A stretch of DNA of 64,000 nucleotides, from NCBI RefSeq assembly GCF_932294415.1, contig NC_065542.1:41257942-41321941 (forward strand). Direction: 5' to 3'. The position numbers and the translations under genes are program-made. The notes below the pieces were generated by a model that was not told the origin of the DNA, searched no databases, and worked only from the letters and a program-made list of their open reading frames with translations. Positions 26,934 through 60,022 of this stretch are shown here, one piece after another (position 1 is the stretch's first letter; each line of letters starts with the position of its first letter). The stretch comes from Quercus robur. Taxonomy: Eukaryota; Streptophyta; Magnoliopsida; Fagales; Fagaceae.

Positions 26934-27014
26934 AATCTAGTTTGGACAAATATTGTTCCATACAAACTGTAATATCACAACTTCCATATAACAACCTGGA
27001 GTGTATTGTACCTT

Positions 27015-27126: not shown

Positions 27127-27251
27127 AATTACAAAAGGCCAACAGTGGTCTTCACAAAAAAAAAAAAAAAAAACAAAAGGCCCACATGTTCCCACTAGCT
27201 TTACTTCCAATGCTGGCATGCGTACCCACTAGCTTCATTCATTTCTTGCCT

Positions 27252-32132: not shown

Positions 32133-32390
32133 AGCAACTGTGAAGCTTCTTTTAGGTGTGTAGGCCCAAACTATATGATCTCTCGGTTTGTGGTGGCTTA
32201 GGGGGATGCCATGGATGGAATTGACATCAATTGGAAGGAAGAGTTTGTCAAGCAAAGTAACGTCCCATTCACCAGTTTTCGAGCTTATGAAGGTACTAAC
32301 CTTTGTGTCTGCTGGTAGTAAAACAGGAGGTGACAACACACGGAAGGTTGAAAGCCTTGGGTTAGCAACTCTCTATTGCTAATACATAGA
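32133..32390 (-). mobile_element. L1-type LINE, upstream piece
   Basis: On minus the frame reads GEWDVTLLDKLFLP, then IHGIPLS and DHIVWAYTPKRSFTV, the segment just before the RVT-associated zinc finger of plant L1 ORF2. It joins in register with the piece ending at 25249. The left limit in LINE order is about 32340-32390, where gypsy-derived sequence begins. Confidence 0.75.
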
Positions 32391-32499
32391 TAGATTTCTA
32401 GGAAAGTCAATAATAACTTGTTGATAAGCTATTTTGGAAATAAAGCAACAACAGTTTAAACTCGTCTACAATAATAATGATAAATTCTAAGAGCGCAAA

Positions 32500-35420
32500 A
32501 ATAAAGATTCGGAGAATAAAAGGAAAGGTTCATTCATTAACTTCAAAATATATTACAAGCTACAAAATCTCGGGAAGAAAAAACAAGAAAAGTAAAATCC
32601 TACAACTACTTTTTCTTTTGGGTGGGGATCCTCCTTGGTAGTGGCAGTCTTGGACCGGGCATCCCCATCTGTAGGCTTCTCGGCTACCTTAACCTAAGAG
32701 ATCACGTCCCTAATAGTGAGGGTATCCTCGGACGGAACATCATTGGCTAGAGGAAGGCCCTTTTTACCCATATTTGCTCCAGTAGAGGTCCCAACGTCAA
32801 TGGGAGGATCCTGAGCGCTGGGGACCTGCTCAAGAGAAGGTAAGGGCAAAGCAGCTGAGGAAGGGTCGATTGGGATCTACCTGATGTGTTCTGGGAAATA
32901 TACTCTGTTCGCCCTTCTCAGCTCAGAGTCTACCAGGACCCCTGCACTGTTAAGGGCCTCGTTCTAGGTCACAGTGCAGTAGTCTTTACACACTTCAGCC
33001 ACCTCTTCAGCCAACCTCTGCTCTGTCTGGAGCATCCCCGGCTCATAGGCGGCTATCTTTGCGGACTTAGCAACTTCCTTGACCGCCTGGGCCTTTGCCT
33101 TAGCCTTTTCCAGCTCGGCCTTCGGGCTCAGAACCGTAGCCTTTTCCGTGGCCAGATTCAGCTCCGTGGTGAAGAGAAGCTTGCGCTAGTCCTCAGCCTG
33201 AGTCTTGGCGGTCTTAAGCCTTACCACGGTGCTTAGACATTCGTGCTCGGAGGTTTTGAGCTTCTTGGCCAGCTGGGTCTTCTCCTCCTTGACAGACCCG
33301 AGTGCCTTCTCCACCTCGCGACGGAAATTAGACTCGGCCTTGAATTTATTATGGGTGTTTCTAACGCATTCTTCGGCCACAAAGACTTGTTGAGTGACCT
33401 GCATAAAACAACAAGAGGATTACACCTAAAGAATATATGTGAATGGAAAAGGGAAATGAATTGAAATGCAGACGAAACTATACTCACCATCGCGAGGTCT
33501 CTTTTTAGAGACATAAACAGGTCAGGCTGCCTCATCCACCTAAGGGCATCCATATCCTTTGGAAGGAGGAGGGGCTACTCTAAGGCTTGGGCCAAGTACA
33601 TGGAGTGCCCCCTACTGGATTCCCTTATAGTGGAATCATAGGGAATAGGGGCCCCGTCCATCTCTATCATGGGAGCCCACATGCGCTGTTGACGGCGTAT
33701 CTCAAGGTCGTCTCAGCTCTCCACAGACTTCGACCTCTTATCTTGAGGGTCTTTCGTTTTTTGTTGCTTCGTGCCCCTCTGTAGAGGCATCTCCCCCTCT
33801 TCCAACTCCTGAGGTGGTCTTTTCTTTTTCGGGTCAGGATTGACTCGCGGACCTTGATCAATAGGAGGAGAAGGAGGGGGAAGAGGAAGGTTGGTAGAGG
33901 TTTGGGTCTTAGGAGCTTCAGGTGGAGTTGCTCCCTTACCCTTGTTAGTGATCAAACCCCTTAAGCTCGGCCTCTTCTTAAGATCCATGACCTCTGCTTC
34001 CTCGAAGCTTGTTTCAACGAAAGCAGCGGTCTGTCCTGGCTAATGAGCTGTAGAAAGCCTATCGGACTTGGTCTCGAAGTCCAAAATCTTTACAGGCCTC
34101 TTGGGAGTTTTCTCCTCCTCAACAAAATGGAATTTGTCTATTTCCTTCTTAAGTGACAAGTGTAAGGAGGAGGCTATCCCTTCCGTTGCTGCTATAGCTG
34201 CGAGTGGAACTTGTTGGAGCAGTATTGCAAATTGCGGAGGATTTTGTTGAGCAGGTAATACCATGGGAGGTAGATCCCGCCTGGCAAGGAACCTCGATTT
34301 CGAAATGTCTATCCTAGCAAGGCGGGGGTTACCTGCTCTTAGCGCTTGGCCTGCGTCCTGGTAGATGCGCGACAAAGGCTTGTAACCTAGGATTAGGTGA
34401 GCGGCTCGCAGTTGATTATCCTCGCTCACGAATATCTTTGACCTCAGCAAAAAGTTAAGCCCGGAGACGTTTACAAAGCTAAGCTTCGGAGAAACGTGCT
34501 TTTTATTTGCAAAAACACCCGAGAAGGCAAACATTGTTAAACCAACAATGAACATTATCCGAGGAGGCAAACTATCAAAAATGAATAGAGAGAGCTCAGA
34601 AAACTAAGGTCTCAGTCGAGAGACCCAGTCTTAGGGTACCCAACCTGGTATTCCAGCCCTAACTAGGTAGTGAAGACCATCATGTCATCCCCCAAAAACA
34701 ACTAGGTAATCGTCCTTTATGCCTTTGTTGGACTTTGGGAGGCAGGATATTAGCCTCACCTCATCGGACCGAGATTTGAGGTAATATCCTTCTGAAAGGG
34801 AGTGACACTCGTACAGATGGGCAACATCGTGCCATGTAAGACCAAGGTTCATTTGGTCGTTTAACGCATCTACACATCCTAAGACCCTAAACATATTGGC
34901 TGCACATTGATGTGGACATAACCTATGATTGAGCAGATAGCCCCTAGTTATTCTACCCATAGGAAGTGTCATTCCTCCCTCTATAAAGGCGATTATTGGA
35001 ATAACAACTTCACCCTCTTTTCTATCTATAAGTACACTATCTGGGGGACAGTACTGTAGACCTACTCCTGGGGGGATATGGTACCTGGCCCTAAAGCTCT
35101 CCATGCTAGCCGGGGAATCTACCAAATACTTAAATCTACCCATTTGAACGAGCGGAAATGACGCAGAAAGAAGGCCGAGGAGGATGGCTGAGATTAAAAG
35201 GGAGAATATAAAAGAACAAGAACTTACGGGAATAAGTGTGTTTATCTCTGTTGTTTTTAAAAGACCTTCGAAGAGATCTAAAAAAAAAAAAAAAGGATTC
35301 AAAAGCTTTGCAGTTTAGAGAATTCTGTGAGTTAGAGTGCTGGAGATCACTAGAGAGCTTAAAGATTGGTAAAGTAAAGGGAAGATAAGCTCCCTCAAGG
35401 CTTTATATAGGGAGTGGAAA
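32500..35420 (-). pseudogene. Antisense gene region of the gypsy element
   Basis: On minus, a TATA-like sequence (near 35402) and leader precede a region encoding parts of a protein family common in Fagaceae retroelements. A domain with ARYHIPPGVGLQYCPP and GMTLPMGRITRGYLLNHRL comes first. Next are a PPRIMFIVGLTMFAFSGVF segment, a Pro/Lys-rich linker and a coiled coil. Antisense ORFs next to the 3' LTR are known in Tat-lineage gypsy elements (RIRE2, Grande); their role is unsettled. This copy is broken in several places. Confidence 0.6.
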
Positions 35421-35683
35421 TGAGTGAGAGTTATCCTGCTCAAATTTCCAAGAAGAGGCTCAACCGTTGGATCTAAGCTTCACCGTTGGATCTAGGGGAC
35501 AACACACTGCTTGGAGCAATTAATGACACTTCGTGGGCTGCGAAGCGTCAGGTGTAATCATAATGCACAAAAAACAGAACTTTCACATGTGCGGTCAACA
35601 AATTCAAATGATATTAGCTCTTAGAAAATCAAAACCTCACTTTTCTCTTCGGACGGAAGAAAAATCAAAGTTTTGAGGACTAT

Positions 35684-36454
35684 TGTAGGGGCAAGGGCCC
35701 AGGATCGTATATTGGGCCTTGGGCTTTATCCGAGGACACAAATGGGTCTGAGGAGAAGCAAATAATTATGAGATATTCCCGGACCAGGTCCCATCAGCAT
35801 AGAGAAAATGAAGGGTCGTCCGAGGAGTACATCCTTCTCGGACTTAATGAATAGGGTTCAAAATATATAATCCAGCAATTAAAGTGACCTTCCAAGAAGC
35901 TTCAATGACGTAGATGTACTTCGCGGACACATTAGAAGGAAGAAAACCTAAAAATATCTAAGAGAAGGCTGTCACCACCACATTAAATGCACTGCAGCTA
36001 CTTTTCTGGCCGCATTTATGTGGAGAAGACCTCTGAACAGTGTTATCTTGACTACCGCAACTCATAGAGAGCTAGAGAGGGTGTTTGATGGGACAATCAC
36101 TCAAGTAGGGTTTCGGATGATCAACAAGTGGAGGGTGAAGATTATTTAAAGGAGGATATATAAGGTGAAGGACCCTTTCATGGGGAGGGATCAGAAAAGG
36201 TAGAGAGAAAAGAAACCTAAACCATTCTCATATTCGAGAGTGATCATTATATCCACATTTAACCTCCTCGGAAAAAAATTTATTGATATCAGCATCCTTG
36301 GTTCATGTTTGAACGCCATGCAATTCAACACTAGCCGTTGTCCAATTTATTAGAATCTAGTTTTTTGACCCATTCTTTACAAATTCATTGTATTGGGCCC
36401 CTTGGACCAAGACCCCATACACTTAAGACTTGGGTCTCAAATTATGACCTTACA
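35684..36454 (+). repeat. 3' LTR of the gypsy element (771 bp)
   Basis: Starts TGTAGGGGCAAGGGCCCAGG and ends TTATGACCTTACA. Confidence 0.88.
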
Positions 36455-37169
36455 AATTTTTTATGACCAACTTCAAAATTAAAGGACTATAATAAATTTT
36501 AAATAAAGTTAACAGACAAAAATCACAAATTTCAAACTTCAAAGAGTAAAATGATTTATGGGCAACGTTATCGGACTACAAATGTATTAAACCTGTCCAG
36601 ATAAATAATAGTAATATTATCAATGGGAAAGGCTAAAGGAAGTCACATTTTGTCACCCTTGCTGATCCTGTAGAGGTCAAATATCACATGGGACGAGCAC
36701 ACCAAGAATTTGCTAGATATCCCAATTTAATTTATGAAGATTATAACTGCACAAGATCTCCATGTTAATAGACCGACACTACATATAAAATATTTCAGAA
36801 AGAAAACTTCACCAAATTTTCAAGCTCAGGCTGTGTCTAACATTAATGCCTTCAAGTCAAACCCTTGGCCATCTCTCTCCAAGTGATCTCCGTGTATGTC
36901 TATGGCTATTGGCTATGCATACCAAAAAATAGAAAGCACATGTGCATGTTCTATAGGATCCCCCCCATTCATTCAATGTGTTCTTTTTTTTTTTATTCAA
37001 ATAAATCTTTGACTAAAGTTTACAGCCCCACAATTTTCTTCCACTTGGGGTCTCCCAATAAGCTCTTGTCTCTTTCCACAAGTCTCTCTCTGAATATATA
37101 TTACTGTATCTGATTCACTTGTATGAGTATTTCTATTCAAGATCTTAGTAAAACCATTAGTCAAACCCC
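36455..37169 (+). other. Upstream region of the RING-H2 gene
   Basis: The first ~150 bases hold an AT-rich repeat (caaatttcaaacttcaaagagtaaaatg style) also found outside the other gypsy LTR. The remainder is the likely promoter and leader of the ATL gene; a pyrimidine-rich stretch lies at ~37030-37100. Confidence 0.5.
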
Positions 37170-38270
37170 ATGTATTCCTCTTCATTTTTTGTTCAAACAT
37201 CTCCAATCTCTCATTCAAGCCATTTGCTAATGGCACCAAACCATAAGCGCTTCTACAAACTTGGATCTCAGGTTCTCACACACATAAAAAACCAGGCAAA
37301 CCCAATTCATCAGCCAGCACAGCCTACTTCAGAGTCTGCTTTTCCTATATTAGCCATTGCTGTGCTATGCATCATGGCCACAGCTTTCTTACTAGTTAGC
37401 TACTTTCTTTTTGTGACCAAATGCTGTTCAAACTGGCAAGAAGTTAATCTGCTGAGATGGTTTTCTGTACTGCGAGTCCAAGAAAGTGAAGATCCCTTCA
37501 TAGCCTTGTCTCCAACAATGTGGAATCATGGACTTGATGAATCGGTCATTCGTGAAATCCCAACATGTCAATTCCAAAGAGAAGACGAGGAGAAAAGAGT
37601 GTGTTGTGCAGTTTGTTTGAATGAGTTTCAAGAACAAGATATGCTTAGAGTTCTTCCCAAATGCAGCCATGCATTCCACTTGGATTGCATTGATATATGG
37701 CTTCAAAGCAATGCCAATTGTCCCCTTTGCAGATCAAGCATTTCAGGCAGAAGCCGGTGTCGGATTGATCAGATCATTGCACCAAGCTCTTCACCACAAG
37801 ACTCTCAGCCCCTGTCCCATAGCCACATGAGTAGTGATGAAGACTTTTTGGTTATTGAATTGGGGGGAGAAGATGAAGTTACATTACCACAAAGGCAACA
37901 AGAAAGAAATGATTCACTTCAAGTTTCAGTGCAGCCTAGAAGTCATTCACCAAAGAAGTTGGAAAAGAAGCATGAAAACTTAAAACCAAGAAAGTTCCAC
38001 CATGTTTCAATCATGGGAGATGAGTGCATTGATGTAAGAAAGAAAGATGATCAGTTTTCTATTCAACCCATCAGGAGATCTTTCTCAATGGATTCTGCAG
38101 CTGATCAACATCTTTATTTAACCGTTCAAGCAATCATTCAACAAAAAATGCATCACAACGAGGTTAGTACAAGTGAAGATTGTGATAGCAGAGGTCGAAG
38201 ATCGTTCTTCCCATTTAGGCATGGCCGAGGATCTAGAAATGCAATTCTTCCTATTGAGTGTGAGCTGTAA
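37170..38270 (+). CDS. ATL-family RING-H2 E3 ubiquitin ligase
   Basis: 366 aa, no intron, as usual for ATL genes. A membrane segment lies at residues 58-83 (FPILAIAVLCIMATAFLLVS). The ATL hallmark GLDESVIREIP is at 121-131. The RING-H2 finger has ligands C146, C149, C165, H167, H170, C173, C184 and C187, with PxxC and WLQSNANCPLC intact. The tail has KFHHVSIMGDECIDVR and IQPIRRSFSMDS, matching Arabidopsis ATL1-like proteins. It should transfer ubiquitin at a membrane; targets are unknown. A second Met at 37230 (residue 21, MAPNHKRFYK) has G at +4 and may be the true start, since the first 20 residues look like leader. An ATL1-type member is likely; exact orthology is not claimed. Confidence 0.94.
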   Translation: MYSSSFFVQTSPISHSSHLLMAPNHKRFYKLGSQVLTHIKNQANPIHQPAQPTSESAFPILAIAVLCIMATAFLLVSYFLFVTKCCSNWQEVNLLRWFSVLRVQESEDPFIALSPTMWNHGLDESVIREIPTCQFQREDEEKRVCCAVCLNEFQEQDMLRVLPKCSHAFHLDCIDIWLQSNANCPLCRSSISGRSRCRIDQIIAPSSSPQDSQPLSHSHMSSDEDFLVIELGGEDEVTLPQRQQERNDSLQVSVQPRSHSPKKLEKKHENLKPRKFHHVSIMGDECIDVRKKDDQFSIQPIRRSFSMDSAADQHLYLTVQAIIQQKMHHNEVSTSEDCDSRGRRSFFPFRHGRGSRNAILPIECEL

Positions 38271-40224
38271 TAAGACCTAATTTTATTTACTTTTTCAATT
38301 TTCACATATTTATTTTGTTCATTTTTTGGTTTTAGGGTGGACATGTTGGAGATTTTAACAGGCAATTGAATAGTTACACAAATAGAAGAAACGAGTGTAG
38401 AGTGATTTTAGGCCGAAATCATACATAGTGAGAAAAGTTAGACACAAATGGATTGCTGAAATTTAGGCATGGGTTAGAGAATCATTGCTTAAACATCTAA
38501 GGGTTGATTAGATCGTCCATGTTCTACTTCCTTCATGAATGAGAATGATTGCTTTTATTCTCCTTTTATCAATAGTTGGACACACACGCAATGGAAGTCA
38601 GAGTAGACGGGACCTATATACAATGAGTAACCATAAATGAAATCATTAGAAAGGTTTCCTGGAAATGGTCTCCAATATCTTCCTTCTTGTTAGCAATTAT
38701 ATTAACGTTGGTAAGGTGCACAAGTTATAATATATGTCGAGTTTCAATTAATTATGGCATAACATTTCCTGTGTCTCAGATTTTTTTTTTTTTTTTTTTT
38801 TTCCTTGAAAAGAATGGAGGGGGAAAAAACAGAATGAGAAACAGTGTGTGCGTGCGCGTGTTAATCTCAATTTAACATTCTAAGGAAAAAAAAATAAAAA
38901 AAAGAGCTCATTCTCCAAATCCCTGCATGTTGCCTTTTTAAGAATTGGTCATCAAATATACTCAAGCTAATCTGCTGAGGTCATACCCAAAGCTTATCTT
39001 TGTGGAAAAAGATCCACTAGTATTTTCTTAATCCGTACGTATTAATAATTATGTTTCGTTTCGATACTAAAAAGAAAATAAGTTGTCAGCATATCTCAAT
39101 TTTCAAAAACAGTGATTAATAATCAATTTTTCCTTCTATATTTCCCCAGGAAACAAATGAGAAGTGAAAGTAACAGAGCAGATGTATACTAGACAACATC
39201 ATAACTAGAAACATCATTAAGATATTCCAAGTGATATCCAGAGTTTCATTATCATTACCAACGATGTTTCTTTACCTCTCAAAATAATCATAGCCAACAG
39301 ATGGGTCACAATCACAACCAAAACCAGACTGAAGCACGCTTGGCATACAATCCATTGCTGTCCTACCCGACACACAAAACAGTGACAATGTGGCGCAGAG
39401 CAGTCATTAAGGAGTCTTATTTAAATTTAAATTTATGTAGTGCCAAGTAAGAATCCACTGGCACTATTTCAGAATTTCCTCCTATCGCCCGAAACCACTC
39501 ATGCTCTGGGACTGGGTAAGACTAAGGTCAGACTATGAATTAACCCACAGGATACAACCCCCTTTCCCATTTAGTTCCCTCAAGTATTGGTTCCTTAGAG
39601 AGTCATCCCCTTCCCAGAAAATTTTCTTTTTTTTCGGGTAACCAAAAAAAATAAAATAAAAGGTGAGACTCCACTAGGAGAAGTACATTAGTCTGATTAG
39701 ACTCCTGACATTAACAATGAACTTTCTCAAACGGTCTTTGCAATGCCACAAATAGCCCTATGATACTGCATGTAGTGAAAGAACCCTTAATATAGTTTTC
39801 AAACTTCAGTCACCAGTCAGATCCGTTTGCAGAGTCACAATATGTAATGCGAAAAGTTCATACAATGGCAGTAATAACACGAAGTAGTCTCTCTTATTAT
39901 ATAATTTTCAGTATCATTAAGATTGGATTCATTTTTGTAAACATCAAGGTTGGAATGAGCAGAGATGAAAAAAAAAATAGTATACTTTCAAATTTAGGTA
40001 ACAAAAATCACTAAGTACGCTACATATAGGCACAACAACAGGTTTCAAAAATAGCAAAATTGTGTGGCTTAAATCACTAGCTACATACATACTTTTGAGT
40101 ATATCAAAAAGCAACAACTGGCCCCTCAAAAATTAGGGGATAATGCTCAGTAAAAAAAAAAAAAAGGTAATACCGTGCAACAATGTGCTAGATTACGTAA
40201 AAGATCAGTTTAGGAAAGGAGTCT
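38271..40224. other. Intergenic region between convergent genes
   Basis: 3' flanks of the ATL gene (+) and the TPR gene (-). It contains a T run near 38781-38801, a purine-rich gtgtgtgcgtgcgcgtg stretch near 38846, and no recognised gene or element. The 3' UTR of the TPR gene should occupy the right edge. Confidence 0.5.
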
Positions 40225-43200
40225 CTAATTTGTGCTGGATAGATTTTGACTAACAGGAATATCAGTTTCTGAGCTCCTAGAAGAGACAATAGTGTGAGGT
40301 AAGGGCAAGGCCTTTACAGGATGATTGTTCGGGGATGCACCTCGGGCTTTTTTCTTTAGTTGTTCAAGAAGTCGATGGGCTTCTTTGAATTCATCTTCTG
40401 CACTGGAGCCATGGCTTTCCCAAGCATCAATAACCTGCTGCTGGAATTCTATTGCAAAAGCATAGCTGCACGAAACAAGAGGTAAATTATCTTCATAATT
40501 TCAACCCTAATGTCATAGATAAAAAGGGGCGGGGGGGAATCTCTTAAAAGCTTCTTTTCATGGTTTTTTAATAATTTTTATTTTACTGGGGGGGTGGGGA
40601 GTTAGGTAAATTCAAGGATAAGGATATTGTGAATCTTTTTCATGTTATTTAACCGCTCCCATGATGAATACATGCATGCAGACATGACATTTGCTCTGAA
40701 CATCTATGCATTTTTGTACTAATCTTCACTTAAATACACAATGAGCAAATGATAGGAATAACCCAAGATAAGGTGTCAAAAGAATATGGATTGCTTAACA
40801 AACCTAATTACATTGCAGATTAAATTTAGCAATAGAAATAGAAGAAATCAATGGATATAGAAATGAGCCATAGATTTTTTTCCTTTTTCTTTATTATTAT
40901 TATTATTTTTTTGTGGGGGGGGGGGGGGGGTGGGTGGGATAAGAATAAGCCATGAAAGAAGAAAGTTAAGCAAAACAATCAAATTAAGAATGCTGGATAA
41001 AATCTGTTAATTCGAATGAAAGTTACTCACATATCACAAATCTCTGAGAGAAATACATTATCAGACCTTTCTAGCTTAAAAAATCCACTAAACTGAATAT
41101 TAGTCATAGAGCGCAGGCCACATGTATGAGGAAGATATGCATAACATACTAACAATGCAGGCAATACAACTCCTATCCTTGTAGCATCAGGTTTTTCCCC
41201 ACATTGTTTTTATTGGCAAGTTACATAGGCACCCTGTGAGTTTAGTGGATTTTTTAGCTGTCAAAGGAAGCACATTTCATTTAAGCTAGGGCTCATTGGC
41301 ATAGCATCAGGTTGTTGTAACTAAAAAGCTTAAAGCCATGGTGTTCATGACATGCACATTTGAGGACATGGTGTAATTTAGCACAAATTGAAAAGTAGCA
41401 AGGGAAGAAAATTCAAGGATCTTTAATTTAATAAAAATTTAGAAAACTAATTAGAAAGAAATATTAATTGGGAGTAAATATTTTTCAAATTTTGAATCTG
41501 AGAATACTAAGCAAAACCTAAATTGATGGAAACAAAAGGTAACAATGACATAAAGGTTGGGGCTTCAAGCACTCTGTATTATTGGATGGCTGCATAAGTG
41601 GTCATTCTTTCTCTAAAATGCAGGACCTTGGTGAGTCTCAATTAATTATAATAACAAAAATGACGTACATTGCATTTGGGACCTACCTAGATACTAACAT
41701 TCCTCCATGTGAACCATATATGGTTTCTCTTTTTTCTTCTTTTTTTGATAAGTAAACAATCAATGAAAAAAAAATAATTTTTGGTAATTTAACACAAAAG
41801 ATAGCATTAAGGCTTACTCAAATGCATATTTTGGAAGGGAGAGGGGTAAAGAAATTAATTAATTAAAAACAATCTTTTCAAGACGTTTTTGTTTTGTTGT
41901 GGATTTTCTAACACTAAAATACCAATTGGCATTCAAGTGAAAGGCTTTTTAGTGTCCAGATTGGTCTTATGTGCATTTCCTTTGCTATTAGTTAATAGAG
42001 ATCACTAAGGGTCCAAGTTACAACAAATTTAAAATTATAGGGTGGACACTTGATGAAACTAAATTTTGGGGTTTAATTTAAAACGGATGTGTGTGTGTGT
42101 GTATTCCTACAAAACTGCTCATTCTATATTGCACAGATGAAGTTTCCCTTTGATATCAGCCTCAAGGAAAGGAAGTTATAAGACTTCACAGAATCAAAAA
42201 AGTCATCCTATTATCTAATATATTCAGAAATGCAAGCGATTTCAATAACCAATTAATTAATATAAACACACAAATGAAACCAGACACCAGGAAAAGAATT
42301 CACCTTCCAGTGGCAGCATAAGCTTTTGAAAGGTTCTGACATGCCTCAATCGAATCTGCATGATGAGGACCAAGTGATACATCCATGATGTCCTTTGCAA
42401 CGGCAAACATCTGTGCAGCTGACTGAGGTCTATCTAACTCCAAATATGCTGCCCCCAAATTGTTGTAGATATAACCCACGCCAAAATGCTTGGAACCAAA
42501 GCTTTCCTTCAACCTTTCCGCTGCACTCTCCAAGTAAGGAATAGCCTGTTGCACCTTGCCTGTCAGCAAAAGCAACCATCCTATTCTTGCAGAAACACTT
42601 CCTTCAGAGTGCTGTTCTTGTGGAAGCCTCTCAAGCATAGCCAATGTTCTCTTTAACAATGAAATTGCAGTTTCAAACTCATTCATAGTTTCATATTGCA
42701 TCGATATCTCCGAGTATGCCTCAGCAACTTCCACTGGAGATGTCGTCTCTTTCTTGTCAAGAATTCCACAAGCAATCTCCAAACACCTTTTCGAGTCTGC
42801 AAACTTTTCCTGATGACACATCGCTTTTGCCATTGAGATAAACACCATTGCCCGAGTTTCACTACCCTTATCCATCTCCTGAACAACGCCCTTCAAAGAC
42901 TCAATTGCAGAGTCATACTTCCCCAGTGCAATCTCCATATTAGCAGCATCAATCTTGGCACGGAGTAAATCAGAACTAAGACCCCAATTCTTCAAAACCT
43001 TTTGTGACAACTGATTCTGCTCCAAAGCCATCTTATGCTCCTCCAACCCAGTATAAATAATCCCAAGAAGCCTCCTATCATGTGCAACCTCCACCGAATT
43101 CTGTCCCAATTGCTTCTTATGTATCTCCAACGCCTTCATGCAATATGGCAAAGCCTCCTTAAAGTTCAAAACTGCAACGTATGCTTCTGCCAAATCCCGG

Positions 43201-43997
43201 TGTGATTTACCCAATTCCCTACTATCTTTCTCAAAAGTCGCCTCCTTAATCTCTAAACACTTCCTAAGATTCCCAAGAGCCTCCTCTCTCCTCCCCATTG
43301 CCGTCTTCACATTGGCCAACTCAAGCTGCACTGCATGAAGCACCGGCATAACATCCTCACCACTAAAACCCTCTTCCTCCAGCCTACCCAACAACCTATT
43401 AGCCCTATTAAGGTACCCCAAACTATCATTAAACCTTTTCAAGTTATAATTAGCAGAACCCATCAATTGCAAAGTCATGGCTACAAGTAAAGAAGGTTTA
43501 TCATCTTTATCCAAAGCTTTCAAAGCTCTACTAGCGAAAGATAGAGTCTTTTCAGGGTCCTCACCTTCTTGGTCAAATTTGAGGCCAAGTTTCAAGGAAG
43601 CCAACCCAAGCTCTCCCTCATCAAAAGCTGACTCCATGTCCTTAAAAGCCTTGAGCATTTCCTCAGTGGTTTTTGCAGACTCAAAAGCCTCTTCAAGCTC
43701 AGCTTTTTGATTGACTTTTCTCTGCCTAGAGGACAATTGGGTTGGTCTCTCAACAAGAGTGTCCATATTTCGAAATGGGTTTTTTCTAAATTGGTTGGGT
43801 TTGAAGAATAAGACATGGGTTTTGGCGCAGGGCTTGAGATGGGTGTGTGAGACTAATGGTGAAGAAGAAGAAGAAGAAGAAGAAGGAGGAGGAGGAGAAG
43901 AGGGGTCAGAAATGTAATTTCTGGAAAGAAAAGGGGCAAAGGACTGTGGCTTATGACGAGAGATGTGTGAGAGATATGAGATTGGAGCTTTTCTCAT
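40225..43997 (-). CDS. Kinesin-light-chain-like TPR protein, two exons
   Basis: Exon 1 is 43997-42304 and exon 2 is 40465-40225, joined across a 1.8-kb GT-AG intron (donor GGAAG|GTGAAT, acceptor TGCAG|CTATG) with frame kept, giving 644 aa. Residues 1-75 are rich in Ser, Pro and Arg with no acidic start (MRKAPISYLSHISRHKP), like an organelle presequence. From ~95 to ~560 the protein is a run of tetratricopeptide repeats of kinesin-light-chain style, e.g. SHRDLAEAYVAVLNFKEAL and YNNLGAAYLELDRPQSAAQ. Exon 2 adds a helical, charged tail (EDEFKEAHRLLEQLKKKARG). TPRs bind protein partners; the partner is unknown. It is close to Arabidopsis TPR-like proteins such as At5g53080, from memory. A frame read through the donor would stop at 42300, so exon 2 is easy to miss. 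Confidence 0.92.
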
Positions 43998-44201
43998 GGT
44001 GTAGTTGGAAAAGTTTTTCTGGGATTTGCTTTGGGAGTGATCGTTTGGGATTTGCGTTGCTTAAGTTAAACCCTCGCAGAGGTTTTTTCCCGTGCAATAG
44101 GACAAATCCCAGCCTTCCATTTAATCCAATGGCTAATTATTTTGACACCTCACCTGTCTAGGTTGGCATTCCGTGTCTCACAATGTAGTAAGTAAATATG
44201 C

Positions 44202-45920: not shown

Positions 45921-45929
45921 TAGAAGAAA

Positions 45930-46732
45930 TGGATAATTACAGCAAACCCACCTGGGGTTTGGCCCGTTTTCATTTTGCCTACTTGTGGTTTAAAACTTTA
46001 CACTTTGCTCAACTGAACTTCAATCTGTTACCCATCCGTTACCCACCTCTGTTAAAACCAGGGGTAAAAATGTATTTTATCTTCACTGTTATGTCTCTCT
46101 CCTCTAAAAACAAAAAATAACATAAAAAACTCAAACAAACAAGATCAAAGAAGGGGGGTTTTGTACCCATTTCAGATTTTTATATCCCAACCTTTCAATC
46201 AAACCCCTTTATCAAACCAAAACTTAATCCAACGCAAGAAAACCCTCTAGAAAATTCACCCAAACCCACCATTAACAAACCCCCAAAACCAAACCCAACA
46301 TAAAACCCAATCTCATTCACAGATTGAAAGTAGTAGGAGAGAATCAAAGGGTTTCAAATGAGTTCCAGCAAAGGCTAGAGAAAGGTGGATTAGCCATGGA
46401 TTTCTTCGCCCAAACCCCAGACCCATATATCTCGAGCCTTCTCGCCGTTGCTCGCAACTGCCATCACACGATGGTCCAATTGGCCGTTGGTGTTTGGTCG
46501 TTGCTATTTGGCCGTTGGTGTTGGGTCGCTACTACTGTTTGAGCCTTCTCTGTTTGAGTCGTTGCTCGCTTCTGCTAGCATGTGGTGCACAAAACAAAAC
46601 AAGGACTGAACGGCCTGAGAGATCTAATTGGCTGCCATGGCTTTGGCTGTACCTTGTCTGCTGCTCCCACTGCTTGTTTGAAGAGTGAAGAGTGTTCATA
46701 CCTCTATTTTTATTATTTTGGTTTGGCCATTG

Positions 46733-46775
<43 letters not shown>

Positions 46776-47292
46776 ATGGGGGCCATTGAGGTGTTTGGCA
46801 AAAAAAATAGAAATTTAGAATTTACTTCACAACAGAAAAATAAATTTAGTATTTTTTTTTTTTTTTTTGCTTTCAATTAGTGCAATGCTAACTTCAAAGA
46901 ATATCTTTATTATTTATAATTTTATTGCATGATTTTGTTTTTTTCCAATGCTAAATATTTTACAAGAAAGATTAATGTTAATTGTTAAAGAAATAGATCA
47001 TTACACAGAACCATACCCTTGAACTCAACTTTGGAAACATGTGTTGTTGTCTTTGTGCTTGTATAGAGACACAAAACCCTCCAAGCTCTTTCAAAAAAAT
47101 TCAAACCCTAACTTTTTGATTCGTGTTATGTTATGTTTTGTTTGTAAAAGTTGTTTTCTAACGGAAAAGCCAAAGGTGGGTAACGAATGGGTAACGGATT
47201 GAAGTTCAGGTGGGCAAAGTATAAAGTTTTAAACCAGGGGTAAGCAAAGTGAAAACGGACCAAACCCTAGGTGGGTTTACTGTAATTATCCC
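45930..47292. mobile_element. Non-autonomous MULE, 1.36 kb, with 9-bp TSD
   Basis: TIRs of ~150-200 bp start GGATAATTACAG and share AAACCCACCT and ACTTCAATC; they are of the same family as the 5.6-kb MULE. The target duplication tagaagaaa is at 45921-45929 and 47293-47301. The interior (46140-47000) has no recognised gene and a 36-base T run near 46738. Confidence 0.9.
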
Positions 47293-49288: not shown

Positions 49289-49296
49289 CTTTATAA

Positions 49297-49489
49297 TGAG
49301 AAATTATACAGTCCTCAAGTTGGACCACGTCATTTGTCCACCATTCCTTTAAAAGACTCCCATCTATTTAAAATTGCTGAGTCGATATTCAATTTTTATT
49401 TAAAACTCCACAATTTTAAACAAGTCGTAATCTTTTACTGGAATGGTGGACCATATCACTTGTCCACCATAAGGACCTTATAATTTCCC
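49297..49489. mobile_element. hAT-type MITE, 193 bp, with 8-bp TSD
   Basis: Inverted ends: left TGAGAAATTATACAGTCCT, right (inverted) GGGAAATTATAAGGTCCT; inner TGGACCA and TGTCCACC blocks also pair. Flanked by CTTTATAA on both sides (49289-49296, 49490-49497). Confidence 0.86.
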
Positions 49490-49497
49490 CTTTATAA

Positions 49498-50453
49498 CCT
49501 TCAAACAATAAGATCACCACAATGAAGAAAGGTAAAGAAAGGTTTTCAACATGACTTAGGATACTTGTCACTCTCATTAACTAACACCTTGCCTTGTATG
49601 CAGCATTTCTTGTAACTATGTTTACAAGAAATCCTTACTCTAAAAATATTAATTTCTTGCATTCAAAAAATAAACAAGATTTGGTACATGACATTGCATT
49701 TTAAAAATGAACAAGATTTGGTACATGTCATTGCATTTAAATATATTAATCACTTGTATATATAATTAATGTTTAACTAGAGGTTACTCAAACATGCACT
49801 TGTACAATCTAACATGTTTAACATGTTTGAGTAGCTTCTTTAGTTACATAAAATTATCCAAAAAAATTGCTACATGTGCAATCAGTCATTTCCAAGGCAA
49901 AGTTGTCCAAAAATATTGTCCATTGTGCAATATATCAAACAAACTGTCCAAAAAATGTTGTCCATCATACTACAAAATCAATATTAGCTTGAAAAAATGT
50001 CAAAAAAATCAAGTTACATTTTTAACTTAAACAAACATGAGAAAATTTTACTACAATTGAACTTACCATTTATTACTTTTTTACATACCAAAAAAGTGTT
50101 GCATTTGTAGGCAAGCATTTGTATTTTCAACACATGGAGTTAGTGCATAATTGAACCTAACTTCATTTCCCTGTGTATATATATAAACAAATAAGTTTAT
50201 TTGATAAACATGTATGATAACATTTATTTTTTACTTGACCAATATTCACAAGATTTGATACTTGAGACGACGATGGTATGGTGGTGGTACTAACAAATGC
50301 TACCAATGTAATCACAATGATTATAAAAGTGTAAGAAATAACTTAGCTACTTATGCCTACAAGACATAAAACATATAAACAGGTAAGTTTATTCAAAATT
50401 CCATGTATGAAAATGTTTACATGTTACCTGACAAACATTTGCATCATTTGATA
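49498..50453. other. Intergenic, AT-rich, no gene recognised
   Basis: Only short low-complexity open frames. Repeated ttgtccaaaaa motifs occur at ~49,900-49,960. Confidence 0.5.
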
Positions 50454-50461
50454 CTTGAGAC

Positions 50462-51053
50462 TAGGGGTATTCACCAAACCGTAAAAACTGCACCAAATAG
50501 TATAACCGCACCACACCACAAGTAATAGTGCACCACACCACACCGCATGGTGCAGTGCGGTTTGCAGTTTTATAATAAGAAAACCGCACAAACCGCACCG
50601 CACCGCACCCTCTCTATATATTAATATATTTATTTATTTTTAATATTAAATATATTATTAATAGTTTGATAAACCTAGTTTTCAAAAAAAAAAAAAAAAA
50701 GGTTTAATAACCCTAGCAAGTGTTGACTAGAAAAGCCAACCCTAAATAAAGAAAAACTAACTCAATAATTTAAAACTTGGCCCAAAAAAAGAGAAAAATT
50801 AGTTTTAGGCTGAGTAGGAAAAGCCCAAAATTTGAAAAATATATCAACTTCAAACCGCATCTTATACATAGTATTGCACATGTGACTACAAAAATGAGGT
50901 GCAGTGCGGTTATAGTTTTGGCTAAACTCTAAACCGCATCACACCGCACATGTGACCGCAAAAACAAGGGGCAGTACAGTTATGATTTTAGCTAAACCGC
51001 ACCGCAAAGTGCGGTGCTAAAAATGGCCCAAAACCGCACCACAAACACCCCTA
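50462..51053. mobile_element. hAT-type MITE with GGTGCGGT arrays, 592 bp, 8-bp TSD
   Basis: Ends are TAGGGGTATTCACC and (inverted) TAGGGGTGTTTGTGG. The target duplication cttgagac lies at 50454-50461 and 51054-51061. The subterminal zones are packed with accgcac/gtgcggt repeats in both directions; the middle is AT-rich. No transposase. Confidence 0.88.
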
Positions 51054-51061
51054 CTTGAGAC

Positions 51062-52580
51062 TATGATGGAGTTAATGTTTTCTAACATCAAAGCCCATTT
51101 GCCTTCTGTATTTTAACCAAAATTCTCATGCATCTTCTAATGTATCGAATTCCATACCAACTCTAGGATTCAAATCTGCATTGGCATCCATGTTTTGAGG
51201 GAATTCTATCGCCACACTATGCAATGAATTAAAAAATACTCTTGTAATTAACAAAAAAAATGTAAAAAATATTACTATAAATATAGAAGAATGAATGTTT
51301 TTCATTGAAAATAAAAGCTGAAAATTTGTGTCCCAATATTGTGCTTATCATACATAAGAATTATGACAAACCAATATATGATCATGAGAGATGATGACCC
51401 AATTGATAAAGGACAGTTTCAAGCTAAAATTTTTTAAGAAACTATTAAAGTGTATCATACCTATACAAAGACAAACATTCAATTATCAAAATTTTTTTTT
51501 CTAAAAAAAAAATGATATTTTCTATCCCTATGACAATAAATTTTTATCACTAAATTCTGACTACAAACTTGAAAGGCAAAGACAAAAATACTACAGTTTA
51601 GACACAATCAGGACCTAAAAGCATAGAATTCAACCAATGTAACATCTAATTAAGTAAAATAGGGATTTTAGCTATATCCCTTGTATCACTAACCATCCAT
51701 TTCTTTAATTTTGCTAGACCTTATTTCACATATCTATTTGAAAATGTGCAAAATTAAAGTTGCAGCAACAAAAAAAAAAAAAAAAAAACTACCCAAAAAT
51801 ATTACTCAAAACAAAACTAAATAATGATTCAATAAATATATATCACTAGTAGAACTAAAATCAAACCCCAACTATCTTGACCCTTGATCCAACTCTCCGC
51901 TTACCCAAAAAATAATTTTTATTTTGATTCAATGTATACAAAAGAGAGAACTCACCTCATTGACTCGTTTGATGTCGGAAACAACCTAGGAATCAAAGAT
52001 GGACCCGCGGTGATTTTGCCATATGGGATTTTGGGGATTTTCTAATGATACATTGGCCAAGTATCGTCGGAACCACCAATCTAGTCAGTGGCTGTGTCGC
52101 TTCAGAGAGACCTTTACTCCATGAGAGTTGAGACAACTTCACACACTTGGAGACAGAGAAAGAGGGAGAGTGTGAGTGTTTGGGGGTTTGGTTTCAAATG
52201 GTAAGTTTCAGTTTTTTCTTTGCTTTTGTTGATGGGTGTGAGTTGGGGCTGCCATGACAATGGGTTGAAGGAGAGGTAGAGAGCAAGGAGGAGGGCAGTT
52301 GCGTAGGAGAGAGAAAAATTTGATTTTATGAAATTATGAACTCAGACCCATCAGGTAAGAATAAACAGTGAGCGGGCTTTGAAAAATTTTAAGGGTGAAA
52401 CAGTCTTTTTCTTACTTGGTGAGGTGTCTAAAAGGCGAAGCAATATTGGAAGGTGTACCCCTCAGAACACTGTTGTTTAGTAAGGAGATGCAAAACAACA
52501 ATGTGTACAATAATTTCCAAAACGACATAAGAGAGGAATTATTAAACTAATAAAGAAAATTTGGAAAAAAAAAAAAATTA
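51062..52580. other. Intergenic, no gene recognised
   Basis: Mostly AT-rich. A less AT-rich stretch at ~51950-52330 could be a gene's leader or a decayed repeat, but no frame supports a protein. Confidence 0.45.
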
Positions 52581-52660
52581 TTGGTGTAAACAAAGATTGA
52601 ACTCCAGATCTCTTATTCAACCATCAGAGATTTTATCAATTAAGCTAACTGGAACCCACC
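52581..52660 (-). mobile_element. Au-type SINE head fragment
   Basis: On minus: GGTGGGTTCCAGTTAGCTTA, then ATAAGAGATCTGGAGTTCAA, the tRNA-derived head of the same SINE family as 8018-8178. The body after the head is missing. Confidence 0.72.
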
Positions 52661-53196
52661 TAATATACTGGACTAAGGTGACTAAGTAAACATATTCGAT
52701 CTTCTGATTTGCTTCTTCTTTTTTTAAATGAAGACAATAATTTCTTTCTTTTTTTTCATTGGGTGACAATTATTATTGTTCAAAATGACAAAACCTCGAA
52801 TGTATGGAATAGAGAAAAAAAAAATTTAGGGAGAGAGGATAAGATCAAGGTACTCATGTTGTATCTTTATTAATAAAACAGGATGTATCTCTTTATAAAT
52901 AAAAGTCTAGTCCATAAATTTTTATGTAGATTAATATTTTTTTTTTTTTTAAATCCAACTTTGGATTACATGTTCTTATATTCTTAACACATACTCTAAA
53001 TTTCTTGCTATATAATTCGTAAACTCATATTTTGTATATAGTTTTTAAAGTATAACAAATTAATTTGAAATTTTTTATCTTATAGATAATATTTTAAATA
53101 AAAAAAAATACATAAGATGGTTATTAATATTATGATGATCATCATAAGCATAGAGGGAATAAGGTGTCAATGTAATCCGTTCGATTTATTATAAAA

Positions 53197-53231
<35 letters not shown>

Positions 53232-53930
53232 TATATATATAGATATATTTATATATATCCAATAGAAATTATCAATTGGTGTAGTATTGATAGAAGTTGT
53301 ACCAAGTTTTTTTTTTTTTTTTGAAATGCATTTGATAGAAAGGTTACCCATCATTCAAAATGATGTTTAGTATCTGTAAAAACCAAAATACTAGGATGGA
53401 TAGTTTCTTTGGTTCCAAATTATGCTTTACCTAAGTTTAATTTTACTATCCTTGAAAAAGATAGTAATATTTGTGTTTTATTAGTCGATATAATTAATTA
53501 TGTGTTTAAATTTAGTTAGAAGACTTAGTGTACTACAAGGCTACACCTAAACTAATTTAACTAAAACTAACCCATATATTATTGGAATGATGATCTTCAA
53601 TATTTACCTTTTTGTGCTCTCCAAAATACGTACCCTAAACATGTCTTTAACACTAGCCATAAAATTTAAATAAGAAATGAGGATGAAATTTAGTAATCTA
53701 CGTTGCAAACACTAGTCATAAAATTGGATTTTTTCTATAGCATAATGATAATATAAGTAACATATTGTAATTAATGAATAAATAAAAATCATATATTATT
53801 GTAGAATCATGTAAAAGTGATGTTGCATTAATTATAACTTGACATCTATAAGTTGGGAAGATTATATAAATCCCTTACAACTTCTTTATTATCTCTTTTA
53901 TTCCATGTAAATTAAATTTCATTATTTGGA
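52661..53930. other. AT-rich DNA with (TA)n
   Basis: (AT)n/(TA)n run at ~53200-53260. No gene seen. Its right edge adjoins truncated gypsy sequence. Confidence 0.5.
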
Positions 53931-53939
53931 ATGGAGGAC

Positions 53940-54240
53940 TTAGGTTCTGTTTAATACTTGAAAGGATGACAAAAGTAATTAATTTCTCCCAAACTTGTGG
54001 TTCGAGGAGCCATGCAGGACTTAGGTTCTGTTTAATACTTGAATGGATGACAAAAGTTATTAATTTCCCCAAAACTTGTGGTTCGAGGAGCCATGCAGGA
54101 CTTAGGTTTTGTTTAATACTTGAAAAGATGTCCGAAGTAATTAATTTCCCCTAAGCCTTTTGTCCGAGGATCCATGCAGGACTTAGGTTTTGTTTAAATA
54201 CTTGAGTAAATAGAGAGGCACGAGGCCTTCATACAATAAA
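53940..54240 (-). repeat. 81-bp tandem repeat, three to four copies
   Basis: TTAGGTTCTGTTTAATACTT-type units start at 53940, 54021, 54102 and 54183. They lie after the integrase end of the gypsy element. Confidence 0.88.
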
Positions 54241-57200
54241 AGAACTTATATAGAAAGGAAATTTTCATTAATAATAGTACCTTTTTAGGTTGTTTACATT
54301 CCAAGGGCATGGTATTACATTCTCATCTAAATCTTCTAGAAAATATGCACCAACACCAGCCACTGGGGTGATGCGATATGGTCCTTCCCAATTTGGTCCT
54401 AGCTTTCCCCATGCTAGATATTTTGCAGTGCCCAAAACTTTCGTCAACACTAAGTCCTCAGGCACTAGTGGCCTCAGCTTTACTTTGGCATCATAACCTT
54501 GCTTAAGTGTGTGTTGGTAGTATGCCAGTTGGACCATTGCTCTTTCCCTTCTTTCTTCAATAAGGTCTAAGCTTTTTTCTAGCAGCTCATTGTTGCTGCT
54601 TGGATAGAATGAACTGGTTTTCAGTGTTGGAAAACCCGTTTCTAGGGGAATAACAGCCTCGGCCCCGTAAGTCATCGAAAAGGGGGTCTTTCCTGTTGAC
54701 TTGCGGGGTGTGGTTCGATACATCCATAGGACATGTGGCAGTTCTTCCACCCACCTTCCCTTCATGTTATCTAACCTCTTCTTAAGTCCGTTCACTATGA
54801 CCTTGTTAACAGCCTCAGCTTGTCCATTCCCCTAGGGGTAGAATATTTATTCGTAATTCCCAATTCACAACAGTACCTCCTGAAGGCTTTACTATCGAAC
54901 TGAAGACCATTGTCTGAGATGAGGGAGTGAGGGACCTCGAATCGAGTAACAATGTTTTTCCAAATGAACTTTTTGACGTCCACATTTCTGATATTCACTA
55001 AAGGTTTAGCTTCTACCCATTTAGTGAAGTAATCAGTGCCAACGAGCAGATACCTTTTGTTCCTTGCTGCCTTGGGAAAGGGCCTGACAATATCCAAGCC
55101 CCACTGAGCGAATGGCCAAGGGCTGGACAGTGGATTAAGGATCCCTCCTGGTTGATGTATGTTTGGCGCAAACCTCTAACACTGGTCACACTTCTTCACG
55201 TATTCAAGTGCTTCTTTCTGCATGTTTGGCCACCAGTAGCCTTGGGTGATGGCCGTATGAGATAAGGACCTGCCTCTCGTGTGGCTTCCACAAATCCCTT
55301 CGTATAATTCCTCTAGGATTATTTCTAAGGCCTTTTGGTGTACGCAGAGTAAGTATGGTCCAGAAAAGGAATGTTTATACAGCTTCTGGTCCTCGGATAG
55401 CCAGAATCGAGAAGCGTTTCTCCGTATATTGTCAGCTTCGGTCTTCTCTTCAGGCAAGATGACTTCCTTTAGAAATAGTACTAGAGGGTCCATCCAGCTA
55501 GCTCCCACTCTGACATTGTGGACATGGATCACTTCTCTCTTCGTCACTGAGAGTTTGTATAAATCTTCCACAAGGATGACCTAGGGCAAACCATGAGCCG
55601 AGGAGGTGGCAAGCGTGGACAAGGAGTCGGCATGTGTGTTCCCACTTCTAGGGATATGCAGTAAGCTAAAAGAATCGAAACGTGACTGTAGGCGTTTAAC
55701 TTGGTCTAAGTATCCCTGCATTCTTTCGTCTCTTGCTTCTAATTCTCCATTCACTTAGCTAATGACCAGTCTTGAGTCCGAGAACATATTTACTGCTTTT
55801 TTGCCTAGTTTCTGAACCATGGACATCCCCTCCAGTAGGGCCTCATATTCAGCCTCATTATTCGTGGCCAAGAAACCCAGTCTTAGCAATTTTTCGATGG
55901 TGATCCTTTTAGGGGAAATTAGAACTAGCCCCACTCCAGAGCCCCTTTGGTTCACTACGCCATCAACATATACTTTCCAGCATGTCAGCCCCTGTAGAGA
56001 GATTGCGCCAACCGATTTTTCATCCATGTCTTGCGTCTTTGCTTCCTCTTCTAACGAGGGTTCAGGGAATTCAGCCACTAAATTTGCGAGGACTTGGCCT
56101 TTGACAAAGGTATGAGGCATGTACTTGATGTCAAAAGCCCCTAGAATCGTGCCCCATTTAGCAACTCTTCCTGTATAATTAGCACTCCGAAGTATGGACC
56201 TAAGTGGAAGCTGGGTTAGAACGATAACTGTGTGTGCCTGGAAGTAATGGGGAAGCTTTCGTGTAGCTTGAACCACCGCTAGGATGGCTTTTTCTAGTGG
56301 TAGGTAGCGGATCTCAGCTTCATGCAATGATTTGCTCATGTAATAGACTGATTGTTGTACGCCATTGTCTATTCGTATTAGCACTAGGCTTATTGCATGA
56401 GAGGCCACAGCGATGTAGCCGAGGTGGTTGCTTCTTGGGAGTGGCAGATGGGTTAACGTTCAGGTGGTGGTAGATGAAACTCGGATCAACCCCTGGGGCC
56501 TCGTAGGTGTCCCACGAAAACATGTCCACGTTTTTTTTTGAGAAACCCAATCAGTTCTTCTTTCTCTTGGGGAGGTAGTTTCGAGCCGACTTGAAAGAAC
56601 TTTTCTGGATTAACGCCAACGGCTACCTTTTCTAGATCTTCACATTTTGCCTCCTTTGTTGATTCATTACCGGACAATGCCGGGGTGGCTGATTGCTAAA
56701 AGCCCCTTCTAGTAGAGGCCGAGGGCTCAGCACTGGGTTGGCGTGAGATAGCGGCCACCATGCACTGTCTGGCCATAGTCTGATTCCTCACAATCTTTTT
56801 AACCTGGCCCTCTGACGGGTACTTCACCTTCTGGTGCAGGGTAGAAGAGACAGCCCCTAGGGCATGTAGCTAAGGTCTAGCCACAATAGCCGTGTAGGGT
56901 GAATAAGCGTTAACTATGATGAAATCCACCTCCACCACGTCTGAACTGGTTTGTATGGGCAATCTGATCTGTCCCTTTGGAATAACGGTCTTTCCCTCGA
57001 AACTTACCAGAGGGGAATCGTACGTCGATAGGTCCTCGAGTTTTAAGTTTAGCCCCTTGTACAGGTTGTGGTACATTACTTCAACAGCACTGCCCTGATC
57101 TACTAGCACTCTCTTCACATCATATCCTCCAATCCTGAGTGTGACTGCTAGAGCATCGTTATGGGGTTGGATGGTCCCGATCTTATCTTCGTCCGAAAAG

Positions 57201-58815
57201 CCTAGCACTGGTGAAGCCTTCTTCTTGGCCTTTTTGGACTCTCGATCGTCATCCTCGGTGGAAAGCCGAGCCACAGACATTACTCTGGAAGGGCAAGAGC
57301 CGGTCCTTCCTGGAGTCGCAAGAATGACATTTATCGTGCCTATAGGAGGTCTTAAGGAGGTGTTTCTCCGGGATTTAGGATTCGCCTATCCTTGTTGACC
57401 ATCGGAATGATGTAGGAGGTGCCTTAATTTTCCTTCTTGGACCAGTTGGTCCAAGTCGTTTCTTAAGTTTCTGCAGTTCTCGATGGTATGCCCCGATTCT
57501 TAGTGGTATTGGCAATACAAGTTTTGGTTGCACTTCATGGGGTCTCCTACCATCTTATTTGGCCATTTGAAGAATGGCTCGTTCTTGATTTTCTCCAAAA
57601 CCTGATGTACCAGTTCTCAGAACACAACATTAATTGCTTACATGTTGGCAGATCTGGATTGCCCTGCAAAGTCTTTCCTCGGCCGGTTGTTGTTGTTGTT
57701 AAATCGGTCCGACTTGAAGTCCCTCCTCTCCTGAGGGAGAACCTTCGCTTTTCCTTTACCTAACTGCTGGTCTTCTTCGACCCTTTTGTACTTGTCGATT
57801 CGGTCCACGAGTTGGTGCAAGTTGGTGACAAGTTTCCTGTTAGGGATTTTCTTAAACCATGCTCAGTTGGGAGGCCACTCTTGAAAGTGCTGATGGCGAC
57901 GTCGTCATAGTTACCCTCTATCTCATTGTACATCTCCCAGTACTTGTCCGAGTAGGCTTTTAGGGTCTCCCCTTCTAGCATGGACAAAGATAGTAGAGAA
58001 TCCAAGGGCCGAGGAACCCTGCTACTTGTGATGAAGCGAGAGCCAAAGGCTTGGGTCAAATGCTTAAAGGAGCTTACGGAATTTGGTTTGAGGCCGTCAA
58101 ACCATCTCATTGCCATTGGTCCCAAGCTGGACACAAATACTTTGCACATCAAAGCCAAATACTTTGCACATCAAAGCCTCGTCTTTGGAATGGATGACCA
58201 TTCTTTGGTTAAACTAGCTTATGTGCTCTACAGGGTCCGTTCGACCATTGTACATAATGAAAGTAGGTTGATGGAATCGTTGAGGAAGCTTAGCCCCTTC
58301 TATCCTGCGTGGGAAGGGTGACTTAGAGATTCGATCCAGGGCCTTGCTCATGGTGTCGTTCACTAGGCCTTTACGGGACGGACTTTTGTGACTGCGTTCA
58401 TGGTGGTGCTCTTCCTTATAAGAAAAGGTCTCACTTGATGGAGTTCTTGACCTTTGCCTATAATTGTCGTCCCCTTCGTCACTAGTATCTGAACTGGAGG
58501 GGGAGAGCTTCCGTGGCGCGCGACGTAGTTTCTTTTTTAAGTCGTCAATCTCCTGCTATAGGGCTTTGTTATCGTCTTGCTTTTGGGATACGTGACTTCT
58601 CACTCTAGAATGGCTTCTACTAGTATGGGTAGTACGTACACTACCTTCTCGACGTTTGTCCTGATCTTTTTCCCGCTCAAGGTTAAGAAAGTTGTCCTAC
58701 CGTTGAGAACTTGCAGGCTCTATCTAGTGTGGACCTGCTTAGTATGGACCTGATCCCATCATGTTTAACTGTTGCACTTACTAAGGCACAAGTTCTCCCC
58801 ACAGACGGCGCCAAT

Positions 58816-59595
58816 TGTAGGGTCACAATTTAAGGCCCAAGCCTTAAGTTTATGGGATCTTGGTCCAAGGGGCCCAATACAATGAATTTGTAGAGAATGG
58901 TCAAAGAACTAGGCCCTAATAAATTGGACAATGGCTAGTGTTGAATTGCATGACGTTCAAACATGAATCAAGGATGCTGATATTAATAAACTTTCAGTCT
59001 GAGGAGGTTAAATGTGTATATAATGATCACTCTCGAATATGAGAATGGTTTAGGTTGCTTTTCTCTCTTTTCTCTCTCCCCTTTTTGATCCCTCCCCATG
59101 AAAGGGTTCTTCACCTTATATATCCTCATTTGAATAATCTTCACCCTCCACTTGTTGATCATCTGAAGCCCTACTTGAGTGCTTGTCCCATCAGATACCC
59201 TCTCTAGCTTTCTGTGAGTTGCGATAGCCAATGTAACACTGTTCAGAGGTCTTCTCCACATAAATGCGTACAGAAAAGTAGCTACAGTGCATTTAATGTG
59301 GTGGTGACAACTTTCTCTTAGATATTTTCAGGTTTTCTTCCTTCTCATGTGTCCACGAAGTACATCTACGTCATTGAAGCTTCCTGGAAGGTCTCTTTAA
59401 TTGCTGGATTATATATTTTGAACCCTATTCATTAAGTCCAAGGAGGATGTACTCCTTGGACGACCCTTCATTTGCTCTATGCTAATGGGACCTGGTTCGG
59501 GAATATCTCATAATTATTTGCTTCTTCTCAGATCCATTTGTGTTCTCGGATAAAGCCCAAGGCTTAATATACGATCCTGAGCCCTTGCTCCTACA
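58816..59595 (-). repeat. 5' LTR of the gypsy element (780 bp)
   Basis: On minus it starts TGTAGGAGCAAGGGCTCAGG and ends TGTGACCCTACA; bases outside it on + are aaatt (59596-59600). Confidence 0.9.
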
Positions 59596-60022
59596 AAATT
59601 CATTTTATTCCCTTAGTCCTTAAGAATTTTGGGTAAATTACGGGACTAAAATGACAAACTTTAAACTTAAAAGATTAAAATAATTTTCTGGACAAAATTA
59701 CTTGACTAAAATGAAAAACTTCAAATTTAAAAGACTAAAATAATTTTTGGGCAAAACTAGCGGATATAAATTACATTTTTGCTTGGAAATTAAATTGGAA
59801 ACTAAGAATATTAACTAAAATAAAATATATAAAAAATCACTAACCTAGCACAATTGTAATAGGAATGTAGGAAGAATATATGAGGCATTTTCAGTGCTCT
59901 TAAAAAATTTGGAGTGAAGCACCTTGAGCTAAAACGGCAGACTCTAATTTAGCAAACACACACAACAGGAGCGAAAAGTTGAAATAATGACATTACATGA
60001 AAATATAATTTAATGATATTTA

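Follow-up and report, generated by a model that had tools for sequence, protein, structure and literature searches.

A Ty3/gypsy retrotransposon in Quercus robur apparently split by a ~21.6-kb inversion carrying a RING-H2 and a TPR gene

In African rice (Oryza glaberrima), a segmental inversion in the Orp region split the long terminal repeat (LTR) retrotransposon R16 (Osr14 family) and left it as two fragments; ~4.3 kb of internal sequence was lost, a deletion occurred at the other breakpoint, and the inversion carries three genes or gene fragments (11.2, b1 and 12.2) (PMC3060143). Inversions arising by breakage and end joining are described in Drosophila subobscura (PMC7584159). Here we describe a locus of the oak Quercus robur, within 64,000 nucleotides of contig NC_065542.1 (positions 41,257,942 to 41,321,941, forward strand; this whole stretch is the window, and its own numbering is used throughout), at which a single Ty3/gypsy insertion was very probably cut in two by a ~21.6-kb inversion carrying a RING-H2 and a TPR gene. 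An earlier sequence-only reading had proposed a gypsy insertion cut by an inversion, and this proposal is supported by the target-site duplication, the kinship of the two LTRs, the complementarity of the two element pieces as seen in three other copies, and the arms of a flanking miniature inverted-repeat transposable element (MITE) that fit together. As in R16, a breakpoint lies inside an LTR retrotransposon, two fragments remain with loss of internal sequence, a deletion flanks the other end, and genes are inverted. The rice case was shown there by orthologous regions and by polymerase chain reaction in accessions, whereas the oak case is argued from the duplicated target site, the relatedness of the LTRs and the divided MITE, and the loss from the element is ~155 bases or more in oak versus the ~4.3 kb given for R16. 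Compared with the Drosophila subobscura inversions, the oak inversion is in a plant, is ~21.6 kb long and is seen in the inverted state alone. As a genome rearrangement the oak case is ordinary, another of the kind of rice R16; nothing on the oak locus was found in the literature searched, and we do not claim beyond this that it is new to the literature.

The element is bounded by LTR A (35684-36454, plus strand), its 3′ LTR, and LTR B (58816-59595, minus strand), its 5′ LTR, both with TG...CA ends and 92% identical to one another (92.1% identity over 769 aligned sites, Kimura two-parameter distance 0.085, with the start of LTR B set at 58817 in that comparison). Only 3′-side element sequence adjoins LTR A (...GGACTAT|TGTAGG), and only 5′-side sequence adjoins LTR B, where TGGCGCC, which we take to be a primer-binding-site-like motif, is followed by gag, RNase H and integrase. 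The five bases outside LTR A (36455-36459) read AATTT on the plus strand and those outside LTR B (59596-59600) AAATT, that is, AATTT on the minus strand, exact reverse complements of each other. The homology and opposed orientation of the LTRs, their one-sided neighbours and the matching outer flanks had all been claimed in the sequence-only reading, and each was borne out here. The probability of such a 5-base match by chance was 0.16% with whole-window composition, 0.30% with 300-base local flanks and 0.47% with 150-base local flanks, and 8 of 20 other LTRs fetched had matching five bases on both sides, as judged by eye. The alternative, that the locus holds two truncated copies of one family that inserted separately and match by chance, would require this target duplication to have matched by accident, which the AT-rich flanks make easier.

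The two internal pieces were compared with three further genomic copies of the element (L009, L010 and L011). The left piece (32361-35683, plus strand) is the 3′ internal part; it starts abruptly after a fragment resembling a long interspersed nuclear element (LINE) and is colinear with all three copies through the 3′ LTR, matching L009 and L010 from window position 32360 and L011 from 32456, unbroken to the LTR end. The right piece (53931-58815, minus strand) is the 5′ internal part, identified by its Pfam domains and by matches to the three copies from 53931-53935 inward. Its outermost sequence is a tandem array of an 81-base unit (53931-54205, minus strand, 3.4 copies) that is cut by the right breakpoint and spans ~570-650 bases in the other copies. 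In all three, the pieces stand in sequence. The final full array mark precedes the left piece by 159-160 bases, and the array match itself stops ~110 bases short of that piece in L009 and L010. Since the right piece ends inside the array, at least ~155 bases, perhaps with several array units besides, are absent between the pieces. No 13-base word is common to both pieces (words built from only one or two different letters aside), and both have the same nearest copy, L010, at 89.0% identity for 32360-36454 (87.4 and 86.5% for the other two) and 90.2% for 53931-56422 (82.8 and 85.6%). Judged on these comparisons, the left piece (3′ end) and the right piece (5′ end) are complementary parts of the element; under separate insertions, the two truncations would have to fall side by side in the element.

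The order of Pfam domains on the minus strand of the right piece is Retrotrans_gag, RT_RNaseH, Integrase_H2C2 and rve (gag at 57760-58170, RNase H at 55755-56459, integrase at 54795-55580, all minus), and integrase downstream of RNase H marks gypsy elements. Six frames of the right piece were scanned with Pfam, and none had a reverse transcriptase domain. Relative to L010 and L011, 877 bases are absent from the window copy at 56419-56422, at the place where reverse transcriptase is expected, and the missing region probably reflects decay of the window copy; the two matches flanking this deletion overlap by 4 bases in L010. The element is filed as Ty3/gypsy because of its family (the family itself was not scanned for reverse transcriptase), and it has the traits of two TG...CA LTRs, a 5-base target duplication, and gag, RNase H and integrase in order. 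Near the 3′ LTR, two antisense open frames (34040-34603 and 34685-35314, minus strand) have no Pfam match; other plant gypsy families are known to carry antisense frames here. No confirmed match to the integrase end, the antisense frame or a 22-base LTR word came from scans of prokaryote and viral contigs.

Genome searches with the LTRs, in which the best 40 of 4718 candidates were scored for LTR A and the best 40 of 5642 for LTR B, returned the two as reciprocal best matches among the candidates scored, which counts against separate insertions. LTR B was the top match to LTR A with 1081 bits, in a near tie with an LTR at C4:34.10 Mb (1077 bits), and LTR A was the top match to LTR B with 1079 bits (runner-up 1032 bits). 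In a tree of 22 LTRs (A, B and the 20 top-ranking ones among the 39 other matches to A), A and B were sisters with 97/90 support (bootstrap/Shimodaira-Hasegawa-like approximate likelihood ratio test; 97/92.8 in another tree run), and the LTR pair of copy L010 was their sister group. Three pairs assigned by position (x056-x059, x052-x060 and x064-x069) were likewise recovered as pairs. The phylogeny, which had been put forward as a check on the claim, therefore does not refute it.

Both outer flanks also carry the same repeat. R1 (36460-36595, plus strand, outer edge approximate), to the right of LTR A, and R2 (59624-59790, plus strand, outer edge approximate), to the right of LTR B, are homologous and have the same orientation within the window. 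Their alignment scored 129, compared with a maximum of 78 among ~300 random window pairs, and 118 when set against 500 dinucleotide shuffles, which reached at most 76; the AT-rich flank repeat of the sequence-only reading is thus real, and it corresponds to the arms of a palindromic MITE. In a genome search with R2, the best 40 of 74 candidates were scored, giving 39 other places. Both arms were present at 18 of these, always in the order (-),(+) and -12 to 119 bases apart, while the remaining 21 had one strand only. On these grounds the repeat family of R1 and R2 is a palindromic MITE, of which R1 and R2 are both lone (+) arms, with no (-) mate for either within the window. The shared direction was odd at first, because flanks that were not flipped would face opposite ways, and a palindromic MITE accounts for it: when the stretch was reversed in silico, R2 became the (-) arm and R1 the (+) arm, with a single AATTT between them. 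The flanks rejoined around one AATTT aligned across the join with all four empty MITE copies fetched, best with L075 (76% over 325 columns; 66-71% over 337-392 columns for the other three), and when the flanks were placed separately on L075 they overlapped by 6 bases against 5 expected, which is a register within 1 base. Separate insertions would need hits at about one point in two copies of one MITE, with the proper mates of both absent, although single-strand places are also frequent among those scored. Despite the many copies of the element family (4718 first-look candidates) and the near tie for the second-best match to LTR A, two independent truncated insertions are therefore very unlikely.

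Element homology starts at ~32361 on the left and ends at ~53931 on the right, so that the flipped stretch is ~32361-53930, or 21.57 kb. Of the breakpoints given in the sequence-only reading, the one at ~53.9 kb held, and the left start of 32390 is replaced by ~32361. Left of the breakpoint, homology of the LINE-like fragment (24346-25254 and 32127-32361, minus strand) stops at 32361; a poly-T lies at its far end, at 24346, and the fragment is 75-78% identical to sequences at C4:84.57 Mb and C4:84.49 Mb (75-76% for 32127-32361). The LINE-like label is tentative and weakly based, with 24517-25170 matching RVT_3 (E 0.11) and zf-RVT (E 0.13), both below the Pfam cut-off, and no Pfam match for 32100-32360. 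At the other end, a middle-repetitive sequence (53755-53930, minus strand) stops at the right breakpoint, at ~53927-53930, and several of its other copies continue upstream. A former adjacency of the left outer and right inner flanks was not found in 10 middle-repetitive loci and 2 LINE-like loci. Junction duplications were looked for and none was seen. No long inverted repeat was found at the junctions either, the longest shared word within 150 bases being an inverted one of 12 bases (32465 and 53794), and this lack of a long repeat linking the breakpoints argues against recombination between repeats and for end joining.

Several observations weigh against one insertion cut by a simple inversion. 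In the approximately unbiased test, trees grouping LTR A or LTR B with x052/x060, the LTR pair of copy L010, at a cost of 7.5 log units, were not rejected (p-AU 0.137), a result that leaves some room for separate insertions. The expected register was obtained with only one of the four empty MITE copies, L075 in plus orientation; the figures were -15, -77 and -20 for L076, L077 and L078 in that orientation and -10, -68, -25 and -32 for all four copies when reversed, values to be read with the caveats that the MITE loops differ from that of the window and that palindromes align both ways. A target duplication of the MITE itself was not recognised by eye at its outer ends. Neither was the remainder of the LINE-like fragment found at 53930, nor the remainder of the 53755-53927 repeat at 32361. 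The inverted 12-base word lies ~100 bases off both junctions, and 4 of 60 random pairs share a word of 12 bases or more.

Because the remainders of the two broken repeats were not found on opposite sides, a loss-free flip does not fit: DNA must have gone missing or a more complex event took place. This, together with the loss of at least ~155 bases of the element, would suit a single insertion split by the move of an inverted fragment, by several overlapping inversions or by a replication-based rearrangement. Two breakpoints nevertheless account for all of the element and MITE pieces, and losses at both ends also occur in the rice precedent (PMC3060143), so we regard these more elaborate routes as unlikely and infer a single two-break inversion, for which end joining of the two breaks would fit best. 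A LINE-mediated inversion, in which the LINE-like insertion joined its 5′ end to a broken gypsy element, would explain why LINE-like homology stops at the left breakpoint with a poly-T (24346) at the other end. By eye, however, no recurrence of the sequence to the left of the poly-T was seen at 53930, and the fragment is ~24% diverged from the two nearest copies found, against 8% between the LTRs, so it is probably older than the gypsy insertion; on both counts this route was judged unlikely, indeed extremely so. An assembly error, with the stretch not inverted in the plant, could be suspected from one breakpoint lying in a tandem array and both lying beside repeats. There is no N in the window, the junctions share no long word, and the 785.7 Mb of the assembly are in 42 contigs, which together make such an error highly unlikely, and the inversion very probably exists in the plant.

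One insertion split by a two-break inversion very probably arose as follows. A Ty3/gypsy element, in the orientation of what is now the minus strand, would have landed in the loop of the palindromic MITE, ~0.7 kb from the RING-H2 gene, with duplication of AATTT. A later double-strand break would then have occurred inside the element, at or just beyond the 81-base array, and a second in other repeat DNA ~21.5 kb away. The intervening stretch would have been rejoined in reverse with small losses and, as expected of end joining, without guidance from a long repeat. This would have flipped ~32361-53930 and left the element in two halves, the 5′ one at 53931-59595 and the inverted 3′ one at 32361-36454. 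Insertion requires an intact element, so the present gene order would be the derived one. With between 2e-9 and 1.3e-8 substitutions per site per year, the 8% divergence of the LTRs places the insertion at about 3 to 21 million years ago; this dates the insertion only, and the inversion is younger.

As the sequence-only reading had it, the RING-H2 and TPR frames lie inside the inverted stretch. The RING-H2 finger gene is an open frame, stop to stop, at 37161-38270 on the plus strand (Pfam zf-RING_2, E 3.3e-12), and the TPR protein gene one at 42300-44060 on the minus strand (Pfam TPR_12, E 8.7e-35). ATG9 lies to the left of the inverted stretch. The five matches of a genome search for the ATG9 family all fell within the ATG9 gene of the window, which leaves no second region for comparison; none of 14 control genomes matched. 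Nothing on gene order around ATG9 was found in the literature searched. The TPR gene lies near ATG9 in Arabidopsis also, a point on which no argument here depends. The inversion breaks no gene recognised here, and its size and kind are ordinary. It suggests that a small inversion and the derived order may be readable from one genome by means of two nested broken repeats, here a retrotransposon in a MITE, an approach that could be run genome-wide without a relative. A further idea, which we hold to be distinctly unlikely, is that the 81-base array is a fragile site at which copies of the family would break repeatedly, seeding small gene-carrying inversions and deletions across the genome; if this were true, split copies would be a recurring source of changes in gene order.

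Other repeats were seen elsewhere in the window. To the right of the ATG9 matches, 20182-20982 consists of three tandem copies of a 268-base unit with 96% matches. A high-copy repeat of ~1.27 kb, itself within the LINE-like fragment, is split (25257-25583 and 31194-32138) by a Mutator-like element (MULE) at 25584-31192; for the longer part of this repeat, 39 other matches were listed at 91-93% identity, and 8 loci were checked for the split. The MULE has long terminal inverted repeats, with stretches that are 93% and 96% complementary, encodes a MuDR-type transposase on the minus strand with DBD_Tnp_Mut, MULE and SWIM domains, and is flanked on both sides by the 9-base duplication AATAGGAAA (25574-25582 and 31194-31202). 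Repeats related to the MULE ends occur in the same direction at 278-423 and 1379-1524, and as an inverted pair ~1.4 kb across at 45931-46051 and 47171-47291, which is perhaps a non-autonomous derivative.

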